DNA of 33,284 bases from a virus. The notes under the pieces were generated by a model. That model had not been told where the DNA came from and ran no database searches. It saw nothing but the letters and a program-made list of their open reading frames with translations. Location of the stretch: positions 1 to 33,284 of the IMG/VR virus record IMGVR_UViG_3300005823_000010. One strand, 5' to 3'. This document shows, in pieces, positions 4,706 through 21,186 of the stretch (position 1 is its first letter; each line of letters begins with the position of its first letter). The position numbers were made by a program, and so were the translations under genes.

Positions 4706-5218
4706 ATGGAAGCAACAGCAAAAGCACTTTGGGATACCATGAGCGAGGCATCAGAGGCTCATGGAGAGACCAACGACTGCACAGTAAGAGCACTGACCGC
4801 AGTCACTGGTCTGACCTACGACGACTGCCACCGGCAGCTGGCCAAGCAAGGCCGCAAACCCCGCAAAGGATGTCACTGGTTCATCGAAGGCCCCAAGGCC
4901 GCCGAGGCTCTGGGATGCACGATGCGCCGGATGCAGCGGAACGAGTACCGGGCCAAGACAATGATCTCAGCCGAACGTGACCCTGCACTGCGCAACGGTC
5001 GTTTCGCTGTACTGGTCAGAGGCCACGTCGCCGGCATGATCGATGGCAACGTCATCGACTGGAGCCAAGGCCGACGCCATCGGATCGTCGATGTCTACGA
5101 GGTCACTGGCCAAGCCGAGGCACCGACACAAGTTCGCCGCGATGCACTGCCCAAGGGCTCAGGCGATTGGCAGTCATTCCGCAAGTACCGCAAGCAAGAC
5201 AATCTGGAGCTGTTCTGA
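4706..5218 (+). CDS. Papain-like cysteine-peptidase-fold small protein, 170 aa
   Basis: The first gene of the early operon starts at the ATG at 4706, preceded by CGCGAGGAGA. Residues 22-30 read TNDCTVRAL, which matches the 'NDCxxRAL' start of a group of small papain-fold proteins, with candidate nucleophile C25. A histidine follows in VRGHVAGMIDG (H107) and an aspartate in GNVIDW (D118), completing a C-H-D triad in the expected order. A conserved-looking 'LAKQGRKPRKGCHW' block lies at 45-58. Such proteins could act as peptidases, amidases or transglutaminases against host factors, but the substrate is unknown. The gene ends by overlapping the next start by one base (TGATG), so it is co-translated with the PP-loop ATPase. 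The fold is inferred from motif order. Confidence 0.7.
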   Translation: MEATAKALWDTMSEASEAHGETNDCTVRALTAVTGLTYDDCHRQLAKQGRKPRKGCHWFIEGPKAAEALGCTMRRMQRNEYRAKTMISAERDPALRNGRFAVLVRGHVAGMIDGNVIDWSQGRRHRIVDVYEVTGQAEAPTQVRRDALPKGSGDWQSFRKYRKQDNLELF

Positions 5219-6219
5219 TGCCTGCACAGATTGACCTGTTCCCAGTATCAACACCCGGCCGGATCGAGCTCCCTGAGGGCTCTCCGGTCGTGGTGTGCTA
5301 CGGCGCTGGTGTCGACTCGACTGCCATGCTGATCGAGCTCCACAAGGCTGGCATCAGGCCAGACGCAATCACATTCGCTGACGTAGGCTCGGAGAAGCCT
5401 GAGACCTACGCCATGGTCGACACCATGAACGACTGGTGCCGGTCAGTAGGCTTCCCCCAGATCGTGACCTGCACCAAGCAGACTCTCCCCACGACAGGGT
5501 ACTCAACGCTGACCGGCAATTGCCTCGACAACGAGACACTGCCATCGCTGGCCTTTGGCATGAAGTCCTGCAGCATCAAGTGGAAGCAGGGACCGCAGGA
5601 CCAGTACATCATGGGCTGCAAGTCTGGGCCGAATAAGTGTGCCCCTCACCCGCTCTGGGAAGATTGCCAGGTTCGCGGGATCAAGCCGGTCAAGCTCATA
5701 GGATATGATGCGGGACCCGCTGACCAGCGCCGCTCGAAGCGCCTCAAGGATCACGACGATCACTTTGAGTATCGCTATCCGCTGCAGCAACTGGGCATGG
5801 CTCGTGAGGAGTGCATCGCCACGATCATCGAGGCCGGTCTGCCTGTCCCGATCAAGAGCGCCTGCTGGTTCTGCCCCGCATCCCAGAAGTGGGAGCTCTG
5901 GTGGCTGGCCGGCGCGCACCCTGAGCTGTTCGAGAAGGCGCTGCAGCTGGAGGTCAAAGCAATGACCGGCCGGCATACACGATTCGACGAGATTGAGATG
6001 GGCGCCGGCTTCATGGAGCTCATCGGATCCGGCAGCCGCTGGCCGTCGACAAAGACAACGGTTGGCCTTGGCCGATCCTTCGCTTGGAACCACTGGGCAA
6101 GGATGAACAAGGTCTGCAACAACGAGGGCACCGTCATCGCTGATCCTGAGTGGTGTCTGGCCCAAGCCAATAAACTGAAGGCCAAGGGCGGCAATGCAGC
6201 CGACCTGCGGACCTGCTAA
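5218..6219 (+). CDS. PP-loop ATPase, PAPS-reductase-like family (first of two), 333 aa
   Basis: PP-loop enzymes adenylate a substrate and often transfer sulfur or amino groups to nucleic acids. After a disordered start, residues 23-36 read PVVVCYGAGVDSTA, a variant of the SGGxDS pyrophosphate loop with YGAGVDS. DVGSEKPETYAMVDTMNDW (56-74) is the typical next segment of phage PAPS-reductase-like proteins. Cysteines occur at SCSIKWK (117-123) and in SACWFCPASQKWELWW (C216, C219), a probable metal or Fe-S site. The start overlaps the upstream stop by one base (TGATG); longer N-terminal codons overlap the neighbour. True PAPS reduction is unlikely: the classical C-terminal ECGLH motif is absent. 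A role in modifying DNA or nucleotides is inference (compare DndC). Confidence 0.82.
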   Translation: MPAQIDLFPVSTPGRIELPEGSPVVVCYGAGVDSTAMLIELHKAGIRPDAITFADVGSEKPETYAMVDTMNDWCRSVGFPQIVTCTKQTLPTTGYSTLTGNCLDNETLPSLAFGMKSCSIKWKQGPQDQYIMGCKSGPNKCAPHPLWEDCQVRGIKPVKLIGYDAGPADQRRSKRLKDHDDHFEYRYPLQQLGMAREECIATIIEAGLPVPIKSACWFCPASQKWELWWLAGAHPELFEKALQLEVKAMTGRHTRFDEIEMGAGFMELIGSGSRWPSTKTTVGLGRSFAWNHWARMNKVCNNEGTVIADPEWCLAQANKLKAKGGNAADLRTC

Positions 6220-6239
6220 ACCAACCGCGAGGAAATACC

Positions 6240-6653
6240 ATGACGACATCAATCACAGCACATATCAAGCAATACCGGGCCAACTGCGCCGAGGTCAAAG
6301 CCGGCGCTGAGAAGGACTGCCACGCCCGCTGCCACATCGTAGGCCGAGGCGTAGAGATCATCGCCCTCGACGAGACTGGAGAGCGCAACGATGATCTCGG
6401 AGGACCTGACTACATCGGCGCCAACGAGCTCACCGTGAAGTACCTCAAGACTCTGGCCGCACAGTGGCAGAAGCACTACTCGCCCAACCGAGACGGCCGT
6501 GTCCTGACGGCGATCCACTTGGCTGGCGGCTACGATGTCTACGACTCATTCTCGGACTACATGCAGGCCATGAAAGGCGACTGGATGGACAACGAGATCT
6601 GGGATGACTGGGCAGGGCAGGACATCCCGCTCACCGATCTGCTCACTGACTGA
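6240..6653 (+). CDS. Unknown acidic protein, 137 aa
   Basis: The ATG at 6240 follows CGCGAGGAAA, the extended ribosome-binding motif shared by several plus-strand genes. The protein is soluble and acidic, with many aromatic residues towards the end (YDVYDSFSDYMQAMKGDWMD, then NEIWDDWAGQDIPLTDLL). Two cysteines lie near residues 16-31. The acidic, tryptophan-rich C-terminus resembles DNA-mimic or protein-binding surfaces, which would suit an anti-host factor, but I recognise no family. It sits alone between two PP-loop/methyltransferase units, with 20 bases upstream and 70 bases downstream gaps. Confidence 0.72.
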   Translation: MTTSITAHIKQYRANCAEVKAGAEKDCHARCHIVGRGVEIIALDETGERNDDLGGPDYIGANELTVKYLKTLAAQWQKHYSPNRDGRVLTAIHLAGGYDVYDSFSDYMQAMKGDWMDNEIWDDWAGQDIPLTDLLTD

Positions 6654-6723
6654 GTTACCAGCTACAGCGTCCTGCGGGGCGCTGACTGGTGGTAATTTTG
6701 CCATCGAAACGCGAGGAAAGACC

Positions 6724-7092
6724 ATGAGAAAAGCACCATGGAACGACACCGAGAATCAGGCTCTCAACAGCCTGTACCATCGGATGCACCAAGGCGTCCA
6801 ACGCACTGAGAACCTGAACAAGGCGGCACTTATCCGCATCGCTCAGGGACAGGCCAAGGACACTGATAGAGCCACCAGCACTGACGGCTTCGCCGGCTTG
6901 CTGGCCGAGCGCAGCCGCGGATCCATCGAGGCCAAGCTGATGAACCTGACCGCCGTCCTGCACGATCTGGGCCGCGCGCAGTTCAGCATGTCCGAGCACG
7001 GATACCGGCCGCTGAGCAACTATCAGGCTGATCTGAAGCAGGCCGCCGTCGACTACCTGAACGATGTAGTCGGCATCGAGACTGCAGCATGA
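6724..7092 (+). CDS. Unknown helical protein, 122 aa
   Basis: The ATG at 6724 follows ACGCGAGGAAAG. Longer open codons upstream lack a ribosome site. The N-terminus WNDTENQALNSLYHRMHQG, then a region with ERSRGSIEAKLMNLTAVLHDLG (about residues 60-85), recalls the short helical 'RSxGSIxxKLxN' motif found near the start of some HNH-type or SANT-like DNA-binding proteins. This suggests a DNA- or nucleoprotein-binding helical domain. No catalytic residues are visible. It ends overlapping the next gene by four bases (ATGA), so it is translationally coupled to the methyltransferase-like protein and may be its partner. Confidence 0.7.
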   Translation: MRKAPWNDTENQALNSLYHRMHQGVQRTENLNKAALIRIAQGQAKDTDRATSTDGFAGLLAERSRGSIEAKLMNLTAVLHDLGRAQFSMSEHGYRPLSNYQADLKQAAVDYLNDVVGIETAA

Positions 7093-8084
7093 TCGAGCGC
7101 CTTCCAAGGCTCGATGTCACACGTCTGGCCGCTGACTTTTCAGCGGCCGTTCGTGCGGCACACTCCGAGGCTGAGCTGCAAGCGATCCGAGATCGCAATG
7201 CCGCGGAGACCGACCCGGCCGTCGACCACGTCCACGACTTCACTGATGCGAATGACCTGATGGCTGAGGCCATCGATCTGCAGTGGAAGGGACTGGCCGA
7301 CTTCACGGAATCTGACTGGAGCTGGTCTGACTTCAGCGACGAGATCGAGACAGCATGGAACCGGGCCAAGAGCACCGGCTTCCATCTCTGCCGGATCCTC
7401 GTTGGCTGCGAGTTCAGCGGCACCGTCCGCGATGCGTTCATCGAGCGCGGTCACTCAGTCATGTCGTGCGATCTGCTGCCTACCGAGGCACCGGGCCCAC
7501 ACTATCAGGGCGACGTCCGCGACATCATCAACGATGGCTGGCATCTCGGGATCTTTCATCCGAGCTGCACCAATCTCACCAATGCCGGCGTGAAGCACCT
7601 CGTTCGAGGTGGCCAGCGGATCAACCCTGAGAGGTGGATCGCCATGGAGCGTGACGCCGAGTTTTTCAGGGATCTGGAGAGCGCGCCAATCGAGCGGATC
7701 GCTCGCGAGAATCCGATCATGCACTGCTACGCTCGGGAGATCGTCGGACGCAAGGCTGACCAGTACATACAGCCGAACCGCTACGGCCATGACGTGAGCA
7801 AAAAGACCGGGCTCTGGTTGAAGGATCTGCCCAAGCTGCTCGACGATCCAGCGCAGCACATCGCGCCGAGGCTGATCGAGTACAAGGGCAAGATCGTGAA
7901 GCGATGGGCCAACCAGTCACCTTGCGGCGCAGACAGCCGCGGGCCCAGTGCGACACGAGGCCACGAGCGCAGCGTTTTCTTCAGTGGGATAGCCAATGCA
8001 ATGGCTGACCAGTGGGGAGGCATCATGGCCAAGCTCAGGGCGCCTGCCGGCGCATCTGTCACTCAGCTGGAGCTCGCACTATGA
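7089..8084 (+). CDS. Cytosine-methyltransferase-like fold protein with extra N-terminal domain, 331 aa
   Basis: Residues 102-250 match the phage group commonly labelled DNA cytosine methyltransferase. The SAM-binding glycine loop is RILVGCEFSG (102-111), and the acidic residue after strand 2 is D128 (VMSCDLLP). Motif IV is FHPSC (156-160), in the place of the 'PPC' of C5-methyltransferases, with C160 as candidate nucleophile. Motif VI-like ENP is at 207-209, followed by YIQPNRYGHDVSKKTGLWLKDLP. No target-recognition domain is evident. The first 100 residues form an additional acidic helical domain not usual for this group. It overlaps the preceding gene (ATGA) and the second PP-loop gene (ATGA), so the three are one translation unit. 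It may methylate DNA or perform another base modification. Confidence 0.78.
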   Translation: MIERLPRLDVTRLAADFSAAVRAAHSEAELQAIRDRNAAETDPAVDHVHDFTDANDLMAEAIDLQWKGLADFTESDWSWSDFSDEIETAWNRAKSTGFHLCRILVGCEFSGTVRDAFIERGHSVMSCDLLPTEAPGPHYQGDVRDIINDGWHLGIFHPSCTNLTNAGVKHLVRGGQRINPERWIAMERDAEFFRDLESAPIERIARENPIMHCYAREIVGRKADQYIQPNRYGHDVSKKTGLWLKDLPKLLDDPAQHIAPRLIEYKGKIVKRWANQSPCGADSRGPSATRGHERSVFFSGIANAMADQWGGIMAKLRAPAGASVTQLELAL

Positions 8085-8938
8085 GCAACAAGCCAGTAAA
8101 CGGTCGCCCGACCTACTGCACCTACGAGCCGGAGTACATCCGGCTCAAGGGTGTGGTGCCGGCGCCGAACGACAATGGACCTGAGGCGCTCGTCAATCTG
8201 GGCGCTCAGTTCTACGTCAGTCACTCAGGCGGCAAGGACTCGCAGGCCATGTATGCCTACCTCCTCCGCATCGGAGTACCGCACGACCAGATCACCGTGG
8301 TCCATGCCAACCTCGGAGAGGTGGAGTGGCCCGGAGTCATCGATCACATCAGGGCCAACATCAGCCACGAGCTGCATGTCGTGAAGGCCGGCAAGACGTT
8401 TCTGGAGATGGTTGAACGCCGCTTCGAGAGCAGGCCTGAAGTGCCATGCTGGCCGAGCCCGAAGCACCGCCAATGCACGTCCGACCTGAAGCGCGGGCCG
8501 ATCTACAAGTTCATCAGGAACCACATGAAGGACAACGGCTACACGCTCGGGATCAACACCATGGGCCTGCGAGCTGAGGAGTCATCGAGCCGAGCCAAGA
8601 TCGCACCGGGCCGGATCAACATGACCCTGAGCAAAGCCGGCCGCACCGTCCACGACTGGTTGCCGATCCACAGCTGGAAGGTCAACCGCGTCTGGAAGGA
8701 GATCGAGCTCGCTGGCCAGCAACGCTTCCATGCCTACAACTCAGGCAACGAGCGGCTCAGCTGTATGTTCTGCATCATGGGCTGCGAGGGAGATCTCAGG
8801 AACGCTGCACGACAGAACCCGGAGCTCGCGGCCAAGTACATCGAGCTGGAGGAGCGCACCGGCTACACGATGTTCCCCTCGGGCCCACTGGCCGAGAAGC
8901 TGCTCAACCTACCACCAACCCAGAAGGAGCTATTCTGA
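8081..8938 (+). CDS. PP-loop ATPase, PAPS-reductase-like family (second of two), 285 aa
   Basis: This protein has a canonical PP-loop HSGGKDSQAM (48-57). It also has the family's RQCTSDLKRGPI (130-141) and GLRAEESSSR (162-171) blocks, plus three cysteines in LSCMFCIMGC (C228, C231, C235) that could bind an Fe-S cluster. This arrangement is like phage PAPS-reductase-like proteins and broadly like DndC of DNA phosphorothioation. The ATG at 8081 overlaps the methyltransferase-like gene by four bases. It shares little sequence with the other PP-loop protein 5218-6219, so the two are probably not recent duplicates. A joint role in nucleotide or DNA modification is inferred from family and gene order, not shown. 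Confidence 0.85.
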   Translation: MSNKPVNGRPTYCTYEPEYIRLKGVVPAPNDNGPEALVNLGAQFYVSHSGGKDSQAMYAYLLRIGVPHDQITVVHANLGEVEWPGVIDHIRANISHELHVVKAGKTFLEMVERRFESRPEVPCWPSPKHRQCTSDLKRGPIYKFIRNHMKDNGYTLGINTMGLRAEESSSRAKIAPGRINMTLSKAGRTVHDWLPIHSWKVNRVWKEIELAGQQRFHAYNSGNERLSCMFCIMGCEGDLRNAARQNPELAAKYIELEERTGYTMFPSGPLAEKLLNLPPTQKELF

Positions 8939-9192
8939 TGAGAACCGCGAGAGAGAAAGAGATCCACCAGCAACAGATCGACTATGTCAACAACTCAGGG
9001 ATCACCGTCGAGGTGGTCCACATCCACGGCACCGTCGACATCAAGCGAGACGGCGAGACGCTGGTCTACCTGCAGGGATTCGAGGGCGAGGTGTTCTGCA
9101 CCGAGGCGCTGCATCTCTGGAACAAGTACGAGGACATCACGCAGAGCGAGGTCAATGAGCTGCTGGCATATCCGTATGCCGACATCGAGTGA
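8938..9192 (+). CDS. Unknown small protein, 84 aa
   Basis: The start at 8938 overlaps the stop of the PP-loop gene by one base (TGATG) and has AAGGAG upstream. The protein begins with a charged helix (REKEIHQQQIDYVNNSG) and continues with alternating strand-like residues (VEVVHIHGTVDIKRDGETLVYLQG) and a short acidic end. No hydrophobic anchor or zinc motif is present. I recognise no family. Translational coupling suggests it works with the second PP-loop ATPase, perhaps as a small partner. Confidence 0.7.
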   Translation: MRTAREKEIHQQQIDYVNNSGITVEVVHIHGTVDIKRDGETLVYLQGFEGEVFCTEALHLWNKYEDITQSEVNELLAYPYADIE

Positions 9193-13365: not shown

Positions 13366-13859
13366 TCCTCGGTCTCCTCCAGCTCGTCCTTCTGAGCAAA
13401 GCCACCAGCAGGGCAGCTGTTGTACTCATTCGGGGTGCCGGCTTCGAGTGGCGTCATAACTTGGCGCTTGATGACAGCGTTGCGGAACACAATCTTGAAC
13501 ATCTCCTTGTGATCCTCGCACCGCTTCTCCTCGTACATGGCGGTCATCTCGTGCCGTGTCATCTGGGCCTCGCGGTCGAGCAGCTCGCCCTCACGCTTAC
13601 GGTAGTGATCCAGCTCGCTGGTCAGATCGCCAACGGCATCGCGCGTCCTTTCCAGAACCAGCTCGACGTCCTTGATCTGCTCCTCCAGCTCTTTGTTGTT
13701 CCTCCTCAGGTAGTTGTTGGTGAATTCGAGGCCATCAGCCTCGTCCTTCAGCTGCAGGAACTGGTGCATCGCGTCGGCACTGAATGTCGACTTGGTAGAC
13801 AGCTCACTGATGATCTCGCTGATTTTATCGATATGGTTCTGTTCTTGTTCTTCTGCCAT
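13362..13859 (-). CDS. Coiled-coil protein, 165 aa
   Basis: The ATG at 13859 overlaps the ParB-like stop by one base (TGATG) and has GGAG seven bases upstream; upstream codons are noise. Residues about 40-110 form a long heptad-rich coiled coil (NNYLRRNNKELEEQIKDVEL followed by VLERTRDAVGDLTSELDHYR). It is followed by a mixed C-terminal part with EEKRCEDHKEMFKIVFRNAV and a low-complexity acidic end. It likely oligomerises, perhaps as a scaffold for the ParB-like or helicase proteins beside it. No catalytic motif is present. Confidence 0.75.
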   Translation of the reverse strand: MAEEQEQNHIDKISEIISELSTKSTFSADAMHQFLQLKDEADGLEFTNNYLRRNNKELEEQIKDVELVLERTRDAVGDLTSELDHYRKREGELLDREAQMTRHEMTAMYEEKRCEDHKEMFKIVFRNAVIKRQVMTPLEAGTPNEYNSCPAGGFAQKDELEETEE

Positions 13860-14581
13860 CACTTGCTCCTGAGTACCAGCACGGCATGGCTGCACCACGC
13901 TGCCACGTACTCGAGATCCGCTGTGTCGTCCTTGTCCAGCTCTAATGAGGTGACGTCCTCGCCACCATAGGGAAAGGCCTTTATCAGGCCCAGTGCTTGC
14001 CGCAACTCGCTGCGTTCTATCTCAGCCTGAGTAGGCGGCACCTTGGTCGGCCGGACATCGTCTGGCGATGGATCCTCAGCCTTGCCCTTCTTGGGGGCCT
14101 TCTTGCGCTTGCCGACATCGAGGTCCATGTCGTCGCGGATCTTGCGAACCGTGCGATCGGTCACTCGGCAGATGTCTGCGATCTGGATGATCTGCAGCTG
14201 CGAGATCTCGGGGTCCTTCAGCGCCAGCTCGACAGCGTTGCGCTTGTCGGCATTGGTGCGCCTGAGACCGTGCTCGTCGTTGGCTCCGAGTGCCCACATC
14301 AGGGCCTCGTGCAGGCCGCCCTCGTGGACTTCAACCTTGCACTCGCCAATCTCGGCGTTGATGTAGGCGTGAAGCCGATGAAAGCCATCAGCCAAGATGT
14401 ACCGCTCGGAGCCCTTCTCCGCGAACACCACCAGCGCCGGGAACTGCGCGCCGTTTTTCATCTGCTCGGCATAGGACTCGATGACCGTGTGGTCGAGCTT
14501 CTTGCGCACCTGGGTAGCAGCTGAGGCGAGGATGTTATCCGTCGCCAGCATCATCTCTGGCCACTTTTTACTTGTCGCCAT
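13859..14581 (-). CDS. ParB/Srx-like nuclease-fold protein, 240 aa
   Basis: Residues 25-75 contain the ParB-type domain: RYILADGFHRLHAYINAEIG (60-79) corresponds to the conserved 'DGhHRl.A' box. In phages such domains act as DNA-binding NTP-hydrolysing or nicking modules. A helix-turn-helix follows at about 127-150 (QIIQIADICRVTDRTVRKIR), as in chromosomal ParB. A basic linker (GKRKKAPKKGK) and an acidic C-terminal domain follow. The ATG at 14581 has GGGAG at good distance and overlaps the previous gene by 14 bases. Without a ParA partner, a transcriptional or replication role is more likely than partition. Identification of the box is clear. Confidence 0.85.
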   Translation of the reverse strand: MATSKKWPEMMLATDNILASAATQVRKKLDHTVIESYAEQMKNGAQFPALVVFAEKGSERYILADGFHRLHAYINAEIGECKVEVHEGGLHEALMWALGANDEHGLRRTNADKRNAVELALKDPEISQLQIIQIADICRVTDRTVRKIRDDMDLDVGKRKKAPKKGKAEDPSPDDVRPTKVPPTQAEIERSELRQALGLIKAFPYGGEDVTSLELDKDDTADLEYVAAWCSHAVLVLRSK

Positions 14582-19974: not shown

Positions 19975-20273
19975 CAGTTCCCTCCGGCCAAGTCGAGAGC
20001 AATGTCCTCCAGATCTTCGACGTCATCCTTGAGCTCAATGACCTTGGTCTCGAGCACGATGATCTCGCTGCCGACCTCCTGCAGTCTGGCGCTGTAGCTC
20101 AGACCTGCGTCAGTCTTGAGCTCCTCCTGCAGTACCGTGCGGATCTGCTCTTTGTCGATGGCTGCGCTGCCGGCATTGAACACGCCGCCAACCCAAGCGA
20201 GAACGCCCATGACCAGGGCCGTCGCGACCGCGGTTAGCACGTTGCTAACTATCGGGTTCATCTTTTCCGGCAT
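19974..20273 (-). CDS. Membrane-anchored coiled-coil protein, 99 aa
   Basis: The N-terminus has a hydrophobic helix ([20 protein letters not shown], residues 10-29), followed by a long acidic heptad region ([20 protein letters not shown], then [13 protein letters not shown]). This suggests an inner-membrane protein with a soluble coiled coil. The start at 20273 overlaps the collagen-like gene by 29 bases; an ATG four codons later (20261) is an equally possible start. It is next to a 63-residue protein of the same plan, so the two may form a complex in lysis or membrane sensing. No family assignment is certain. Confidence 0.7.
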
Positions 20274-21186
20274 CTTCCTTGCTCCTCTTTTCTAAGATCC
20301 GCTGACGTACTGACTCGCGTCGAGCCTCACCAGCTTCATTGGCCTTGCGCAGGGCCGCCGCCTCCCGCTTTAGTCGATCGATCTCTGCCTGCTCCTCGGC
20401 CTGATCCCGCTCGAGCTCCTCGATGAGTGACTGCTGTTGTGCGTACCTATACTCGGACTGCTCGAAGTGATCCGCGACGTCCTCAGCACTCTGCGCCATG
20501 AGCTCGAGATCCTGCAGCTCGTCCTCGTAGACCAGCACCATGCCGGGAGGTATCTGCGCCGGCTCAGGAGCTGGAGCTGCGGCCGGTGCGATGGAGCTCA
20601 TGTCCATCTTCATCTTGCGGTCGCCACCAAACTCGAAGCCGAAGGATCCACGGATCGCAGTCTCGTCGCCGGCACGGCCAACCGACAGCGTCAGTGCTGA
20701 GTTGCGATCGTTGTCCAGCATGTAGGCGTAGCCGACACCGACGCCAGTCGTGTTGTTGATCCTGACCCCGCTGAAGGTGATGCGCTGAGTCTGGTCGTGC
20801 GGCAGGAACGTCTGGATTGCAGCATCAGCTGCGATCGCATCGCGCGCTGCCCGGATCCACTTGTTGTGAATGTTGAACGTGTTGTTTGTCTCGGTGATCC
20901 ACTCGGTCGGGATCTCACCCGGAGGTCCCTGAGGACCGGGAGGGCCAGCGGGACCCGGAGGACCCGGAGGACCTGCAGGCCCGGGAGTACCCGGAGGACC
21001 AGCTGGCCCCGGAGGTCCGGCAGGACCGGGAGGCCCCGGAGGCCCGGGCTCACCGCAACCGACCTCGATGAACCGAGGATGGTCACACTCCATGGGCTCG
21101 TCCCATGCGTAAGCGCGAGTAGATACGACCGCGACCGTGCCCAGGACGATCAGGAGGATCACGATATGTCTGAGTCTCAATTTCAT
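20245..21186 (-). CDS. Secreted collagen-like protein with coiled-coil C-terminus, 313 aa
   Basis: The product has a signal peptide (hydrophobic core [16 protein letters not shown], cleavage likely after AYA at 27). A proline-rich collagen region of about 15 Gly-X-Y triplets spans residues 45-91. A domain at about 95-185 ([20 protein letters not shown], then [20 protein letters not shown]) resembles the head-to-anchor part of trimeric surface proteins. A charged coiled coil at 235-305 follows ([20 protein letters not shown]). Collagen stretches are common in phage tail fibres, but those lack signal peptides; this one should be exported by the infected host. It lies in the lysis cassette, overlapping the spanin stop (ATGA). 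It might trimerise and coat or bridge the envelope. Function unknown. Confidence 0.82.

Follow-up and report, generated by a model that had tools for sequence, protein, structure and literature searches.

A variable phage cassette with two different PP-loop proteins and a C5-methyltransferase-like protein as possible counter-defence cargo

Results

Two PP-loop proteins and a methyltransferase-fold protein lie in one early cassette

The DNA analysed here is the whole 33.3-kb IMG/VR virus record IMGVR_UViG_3300005823_000010 (hereafter the window), which is possibly a genome fragment. Its large-terminase protein shares 40% identity with the terminase of Bordetella phage BPP-1, and a podovirus-type head-tail adaptor is present in one relative. 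The window phage is podovirus-like, and its variable early region contains a cassette (4706-9192) encoding two PP-loop proteins, PP1 and PP2, and a protein of the C5-cytosine-methyltransferase (MTase) fold, MT. An original prediction, made from the letters alone, had proposed a new modification system at this locus. Its open reading frame (ORF) positions, motifs and 1- or 4-base overlaps were all verified in the sequence, and the presence of two distinct PP-loop proteins and a C5-methyltransferase-like protein was backed by motifs and profile searches. The ORF 6724-7092 overlaps MT by 4 bases, MT overlaps PP2 by 4 bases, and PP2 overlaps the ORF 8938-9192 by 1 base; in addition to these known overlaps, the stop of the ORF 4706-5218 shares 1 base with the start of PP1 (ATG at 5218). 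Since the same genes recur, shuffled or rearranged, in about 14 further IMG/VR contigs, the cassette is not a product of chance. Its three main genes and their key residues are as follows, with conservation counted in wider sets of 153 PP1, 88 PP2 and 86 MT ORFs.

5218-6219, plus strand: PP1, PP-loop protein of 333 amino acids with the variant loop YGAGVDS (phrog_424, 7.5e-23; AlphaFold2 model)
5299-5319, plus strand: PP-loop YGAGVDS of PP1, residues 28-34 (read from the sequence)
5569-5571, plus strand: PP1 Cys118 (SCSxKWK), first Cys of the triad, in 152/153 ORFs; paired by hhalign with PP2 Cys132
5863-5874, plus strand: PP1 Cys216-x2-Cys219 (CWFC), rest of the triad, in 152/153
7089-8084, plus strand: MT, C5-cytosine-MTase-fold protein of 331 amino acids (phrog_757 'DNA methyltransferase', 3.9e-46)
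7557-7568, plus strand: MT motif IV HPSC (157-160) with catalytic Cys160, Cys in 86/86
7707-7715, plus strand: MT motif VI ENP (207-209) with Glu207; Glu in 85/86, Asn and Pro in 86/86
8081-8938, plus strand: PP2, canonical SGGKDS PP-loop protein of 285 amino acids, BrxP/DndC/SspD-like (PF01507 37.5 bits, above cut-off; phrog_424, 9.5e-40)
8225-8242, plus strand: PP-loop SGGKDS of PP2, residues 49-54 (sequence and family alignment)
8474-8476, plus strand: PP2 Cys132 (QCTSDLK), in 88/88
8762-8773, plus strand: PP2 Cys228-x2-Cys231 (CMFC), in 87/88

PP1 and PP2 share a cysteine triad and lack the reductase motif

PP1 and PP2 are remote homologues (hhalign 97.6%, E 2.6e-12). The alignment paired Cys118 of PP1 with Cys132 of PP2, and Cys216/219 with Cys228/231, which gives both proteins the cysteine of an (S/Q)C(S/T)xxxK motif and a later CxxC. 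No other later Cys column of comparable conservation was found in the two families, the best reaching 75/153 in PP1 and 18/88 in PP2. The ATP-pyrophosphatase loop S-G/A-G-K-D-S was kept in all 88 PP2 ORFs, and PP2 also bears GLRAEESSSR and a CMFC..C cluster. The loop of the PP1 family is mostly Y/F-G-x-G-V/T-D/N-S, with G29, G31 and S34 kept in 149-150 of the 153 ORFs. The catalytic motif of sulfonucleotide reductases reads ECG(I/L)H; searched as ECG[ILVMF]H, it occurred in 0/153 PP1 and 0/88 PP2 ORFs. Sulfonucleotide reductases possess a conserved C-terminal Cys (PMC8175902). Because PP1 and PP2 are without the catalytic Cys motif of true phosphoadenosine phosphosulfate (PAPS) reductases, their genes should not be taken for ones of sulfate assimilation.

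Among the PADLOC profiles, PP2 matched BrxP (3.7e-16), DndC (8.9e-11) and SspD (2.9e-10), and the C-terminal half of PP1 matched SspD (1.3e-10). PP1 stayed below the Pfam cut-off for PF01507, and PP2 scored 30.8 bits against the NCBIfam DndC equivalog TIGR03183, whose cut-off is 290.4. A single near-invariant Cys (132) stands in the middle region of PP2, as judged within its own family and not by alignment to DndC itself; BrxP is described as lacking the Cys dyad of DndC (PMC12839542). The AlphaFold2 model of PP1 (mean predicted local distance difference test (pLDDT) 90.8, predicted template modelling score 0.88) matched the PAPS and adenosine phosphosulfate (APS) reductases of yeast, E. coli and M. 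tuberculosis with Z 11-12.4, the [4Fe-4S] tRNA thiolase TtuA (5mkp) with Z 11.0 (root-mean-square deviation 2.6, 168 aligned), NcsA (6scy) with Z 10.5 and LarE with Z 9.4, and its top Foldseek match was the sulfurtransferase 5ztb. Sequence profiles of PP1, PP2, MT and the 6724-7092 protein gave no useful match in the PDB, the few weak matches looking chance-like. PP1 and PP2 are phrog_424 PP-loop proteins that fail the tests for a PAPS reductase and for DndC proper. The three-Cys pattern would fit the open-site cluster of [4Fe-4S] PP-loop thiolases of the TtuA/NcsA/TtcA type, and PP1 and PP2 most likely work like such thiolases, with the cluster as a predicted component.

MT is a predicted C5-cytosine methyltransferase

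The best structural matches of the MT model (pLDDT 78.5) were DNMT3B/3A (Z 13.0), M.HaeIII (12.3) and M.HhaI (12.3), and its top Foldseek match was 1dct; Pfam returned no match for MT, PF00145 included. In the region of motif VIII (QxRxR) the MT family has QxxQPxxFG, a putative equivalence by region and not by residue-by-residue comparison. The residue preceding PPC in the 86 MT ORFs was H, F or N and never S, as it would be in the SPPC motif of CmoX. Among the loci examined, the helical N-terminus (about 1-95) was seen only in this phage lineage. The inter-motif spacing suggests that, as in DNMT3, the target-recognition region is very small. From its fold and catalytic residues, MT most likely has C5-MTase activity, possibly with low specificity.

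PP1 and PP2 form a recurrent pair

Outside the MT lineage, a PP2-type gene was found within 7 kb of PP1 in 16 of 67 phage loci, with both genes on one strand in every case and less than 1 kb apart in most. The controls gave 0/88 random phage loci (p 5e-7, the Fisher values here being too small and overstating the case, as the contigs are related and not independent) and 0/72 MT-centred cargo loci. Nearby PP2 genes, in both gene orders, were also present at 10 of 79 bacterial PP1 loci. Seven changes were needed to place the paired state on the PP2 tree, and well-supported (starred) branches force at least five of them; it is from these separate changes that a functional link between PP1 and PP2 is argued. 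Neighbourhood clustering revealed no conserved third partner of the pair, and no description of it was found in the literature searched, whose reach left out most subscription papers.

MT does not travel with PP-loop genes outside its lineage

The original prediction had proposed to check whether the PP-loop and methyltransferase families co-occur across phages. They did not do so above random contigs: phrog_424 was present in 4/39 MT contigs outside the lineage, compared with 2/42 random phage contigs (p 0.42). With all tested MTases counted, one was found within 1 kb of PP1 or PP2 at 18/206 loci, compared with 4/88 random ones (p 0.33); PF00145 was found in 6/40 PP1 contigs and 7/42 random contigs; and of the 4/49 PP2 contigs with phrog_757, two represent the window's own lineage. 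A general PP-loop/MTase linkage, tested in four ways including any MTase within 1-3 kb, was unsupported. As MT is unlinked to PP-loops outside the lineage, the three-part system is unsupported as a general unit, and the earlier idea that the PP-loop pair and the methyltransferase make up one modification system does not generalise beyond this lineage.

The order of the cargo varies within the lineage: the window type has PP1 upstream of MT, and L008, L091/L092 and L194 have it downstream of PP2. Two relatives, L003 and L007, keep homologues of MT, 6724-7092 and 4706-5218 without PP1 and PP2, and L007 also keeps those of 6240-6653 and 8938-9192. Tight MTase/PP-loop adjacency does exist as single real cases, in pWW0, Dolphis, PseuP_222, KB12-38, L196/L197 and L289/L290, in a number not above background. 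In Pseudomonas phage Dolphis (MT711888.1 gp103-gp104, L446:4992-6970), the PP2 homologue overlaps an N6/N4 DNA methylase by 4 bases, which is the same coupling as that of MT and PP2 in the window with a different methylase class; PP2 also sits after an N6/N4 methylase in PseuP_222. Separately, a further PP-loop type (SFSGGRTS) was seen near phrog_757 methyltransferases in two unrelated contigs (L035:3488-4336 and L043:4786-5727).

PP1 relatives occur on mobile elements beside anti-defence genes

Of the 134 plasmid records with a PP1 relative, 67 were conjugative. The homologue on the laboratory TOL plasmid pWW0 (NC_003350.1 12857-13948; 55% identity), annotated only as hypothetical, lies two genes ahead of a PF00145 C5-MTase, with genes for a single-stranded DNA-binding protein and a DUF932 protein nearby. 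On the P. aeruginosa plasmid NZ_CP077979.1 (8422-9597; L443), the homologue lies in an anti-CRISPR island, next to acrE1, acrF3, one more anti-CRISPR gene and a small helix-turn-helix gene. Other bacterial relatives occupy plasmid or integrative-element loci where the neighbours include ParB-like, ArdC-like, DarB-like, C5-MTase, DUF3560/MTase and large helicase-MTase genes, identities that were assigned partly by reading their sequences. Plasmid leading regions are known to gather anti-defence genes, orphan MTases and single-stranded DNA-binding proteins (PMC11541004). The context of PP1 on mobile elements fits counter-defence cargo.

Accompanying genes and other features of the window

The remaining cassette genes encode small proteins:

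4706-5218, plus strand: small early protein of 170 amino acids (phrog_3754, unknown function), overlapping PP1 by 1 base
6240-6653, plus strand: small protein of 137 amino acids without profile match, mobile inside the cassette
6724-7092, plus strand: small protein of 122 amino acids resembling the N-terminal third of the PADLOC candidate defence protein PDC-S36 (2.1e-12)
8938-9192, plus strand: small protein of 84 amino acids without confident match, overlapping PP2 by 1 base

A homologue of 4706-5218 sits upstream of PP1 in most relatives, and one of 6724-7092 adjoins every complete MT of the lineage. The 6724-7092 protein had no match in Pfam, PHROGs or cultured phages, and a Pfam search with its family was also empty. 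Among the window proteins scanned with PADLOC and Pfam (part of the ORFs), none matched DndB/D/E, SspB/C or DUF4007, in agreement with the original view that this would not be the classical Dnd system. None of the scanned proteins of the window, possibly a fragment, matched QueC, QueD, QueE, FolE or DpdA. The deazaguanine synthesis that had been considered for the cassette thus gained no support, the PP-loop proteins matching phrog_424 and not QueC.

A near-identical leader, CGCGAGGAAA, lies upstream of four cargo genes and one later plus-strand stretch (4691, 6226, 6710, 9277 and 16768). With one copy bearing a mismatch, it had 7 matches in the window compared with 3 expected, and is possibly just a strong ribosome-binding site. 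A ParB-like protein (phrog_1033) is encoded at 13859-14581 on the minus strand, and a collagen-like GPP-repeat protein at 20245-21186 on the minus strand, near lysis-type genes. Promoter, terminator and Rfam scans yielded nothing useful, and the window holds no tRNA gene.

Discussion

Our preferred explanation, put forward tentatively and with somewhat less than even confidence, is that the cassette is counter-defence cargo of two loosely joined parts, an orphan C5-MTase and a two-PP-loop pair for nucleic-acid thiolation. MT, with a miniature recognition region, would methylate the phage's own DNA, both its activity and its target being predictions. PP1 and PP2, different but homologous PP-loop ATP pyrophosphatases, would act as a pair, with one or both holding a [4Fe-4S] cluster through the common Cys triad. 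They may adenylate and so activate an oxygen on nucleic acid, which would then be swapped for sulfur from a host cysteine desulfurase; TtuA/NcsA/TtcA on tRNA and DndC/SspD on the DNA backbone could serve as models for such an exchange. The cluster, the sulfur transfer, the nucleic-acid substrate and the protective purpose are what we infer from motifs, folds and gene context, and DNA is weakly preferred to tRNA as the substrate.

Several observations weigh against this explanation. Elsewhere, PP1 and PP2 genes are mostly found singly, the relatedness of the contigs inflates the pairing statistics, and L089 and L090 have PP1 with no PP2 detected. The cassette is not one obligate machine, because MT is unlinked to PP-loops elsewhere and relatives keep it without both of them. 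Neither a desulfurase nor a DNA-scanning partner was found among the window proteins scanned. Moreover, the window is devoid of 10/19 testable 6-bp palindromes, compared with 4/1028 non-palindromes, and CTAG occurs 0 times where 38 are expected.

The absence of palindromic hexamers and CTAG implies that the phage line is still marked by type II restriction. A genome-wide restriction-proof modification would make such avoidance needless; in T4-kind coliphages the share of host restriction sites avoided is 2.4% where a DNA hydroxymethylase is present, compared with 55.8% in relatives without the enzyme (PMC6286503). This weighs against broad protection, and MT, PP1 and PP2 are unlikely to render the entire genome restriction-proof. 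A narrow modification, a recent acquisition or an action against other defences are all possible. Palindrome avoidance does not set this phage apart, since palindromes are also under-represented in random phage contigs (median 0.76 observed/expected), and many bacterial genomes contain little CTAG; the palindrome evidence is therefore supporting and not decisive. In relatives of 10-15 kb, palindrome statistics were too weak to separate contigs with PP-loops from those without. Of the original suggestion that the set helps the phage to avoid host restriction, the counter-defence part is supported by the setting of the PP1 relatives, whereas a broad change of bases is weakened by the palindrome avoidance of the window.

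The cassette might also be loose anti-restriction cargo, in which an ordinary orphan MT and two unrelated accessory PP-loop genes were gathered in the same variable region. The MT/PP-loop co-occurrence at the level of random contigs, the retention of MT without PP-loops in L003 and L007 and the reshuffled order among relatives would all agree with that, whereas the PP1-PP2 pairing, which recurs much more often than at random or MT-cargo loci, and the tight overlaps of MT with PP2 in the window and of the N6/N4 MTase with PP2 in Dolphis would not; we regard it as doubtful, if worth serious consideration. It is also conceivable, though unlikely, that PP1 and PP2 thiolate, repair or protect tRNA, against a tRNA-targeting defence or to tune translation. 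Established PP-loop thiolases act mostly on tRNA, and the non-reductase structural neighbours of PP1 include TtuA, NcsA and the tRNA lysidine synthetase TilS; against this, the window is devoid of tRNA genes, the neighbours are DNA-defence genes, and the best families for PP2 are the DNA-modifying BrxP/DndC/SspD and not TtcA/TilS/MnmA.

The same PP2 profiles, with the SspD match in the C-terminal half of PP1, could point to a minimal Dnd/Ssp-like phosphorothioation that uses host IscS and an unrecognised scanning protein such as 6724-7092, and DndA is replaceable by host desulfurases (PMC10853773). The DndC equivalog cut-off was missed widely, however, and DndB/D/E, SspB/C and DUF4007 were unmatched among the scanned proteins, so that we consider this route distinctly unlikely. 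In a non-sulfur hypermodification, MT would transfer a non-methyl group and a PP-loop enzyme would ligate through AMP-forming chemistry, in the manner of the phage C5-MTase homologue CmoX and the AMP-forming ligase CmoY (PMC12783734). PP-loop enzymes adenylate substrates, and the ParB-like gene at 13859-14581 recalls the ParB-domain proteins near phage CmoX carboxymethyltransferases (PMC12783734), whereas MT has HPSC/HPPC and not SPPC, the Cys triad points to sulfur chemistry, and no scanned protein matched CmoA or asparagine synthetase; this makes the proposal highly improbable. The usual annotation as auxiliary metabolic genes for assimilatory sulfate reduction (cysH) draws on the fold match to PAPS/APS reductases, the phrog_424 and Pfam names and the literature on such genes (PMC9301287). 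We find it scarcely credible here, given that ECGxH is absent from all 241 ORFs tested, that PP2 keeps the SGGKDS ATP-pyrophosphatase loop, and that two different copies are present per phage in an anti-defence context.

If the preferred reading of a methyltransferase beside a thiolation pair is taken further, PP1 and PP2 might constitute a two-PP-loop module, not described before, for sulfur insertion into nucleic acid (possibly the bases or the backbone of DNA) independently of the known Dnd/Ssp machinery, as counter-defence cargo of phages and conjugative plasmids hidden under the name of a 'cysH auxiliary metabolic gene'; we offer this as a speculative and on balance doubtful proposal. Among the auxiliary metabolic genes of viruses, 'cysH' is reported to be one of the most widespread, and it is read as sulfate assimilation (PMC9301287). 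For the two phage families filed under this name here, without the catalytic Cys and with a thiolase-like site, a role in metabolism is probably a misreading. The recurrence of PP1 with PP2, and the occurrence of PP1 on pWW0 and beside anti-CRISPR genes, make the pair a concrete candidate, open to experiment, for a new activity in counter-defence or in the modification of nucleic acid.

Compared with known systems, both PP-loop proteins match phrog_424, 'phosphoadenosine phosphosulfate reductase', the family of phage cysH-type auxiliary metabolic genes; the window differs from these and from PAPS reductases in having two different members in one cassette without the C-terminal catalytic Cys motif. 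With TtuA/NcsA/TtcA they have the PP-loop fold and the three-Cys pattern in common, and PP1 matches TtuA and NcsA in structure, though not in sequence. PP2 matches the profiles of BrxP (type 4 BREX), DndC and SspD, with a PP-loop and conserved cysteines in common, whereas no DndA/B/D/E, SspA/B/C or BrxC/PglZ partners were seen in the window, which has a second PP-loop protein instead. CasCysH of type IV-B CRISPR-Cas is a plasmid-borne, CysH-like PP-loop protein described as likewise lacking the catalytic Cys (PMC8175902), and has been proposed to be an ATP alpha-hydrolase (PMC8175902); it differs in that no csf genes were seen in the window. The CmoX/CmoA/CmoY carboxymethylcytosine system likewise places a phage C5-MTase homologue beside an AMP-forming enzyme with a ParB-like gene near, but the window MT is without SPPC, and no scanned protein matched CmoA or CmoY. 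Finally, MT shares the C5-MTase fold and the catalytic Cys and Glu with phrog_757 MTases, DNMT3 and M.HaeIII, and is set apart from them by its lack of a PF00145 match, its very small recognition region and its extra, lineage-specific N-terminal domain.

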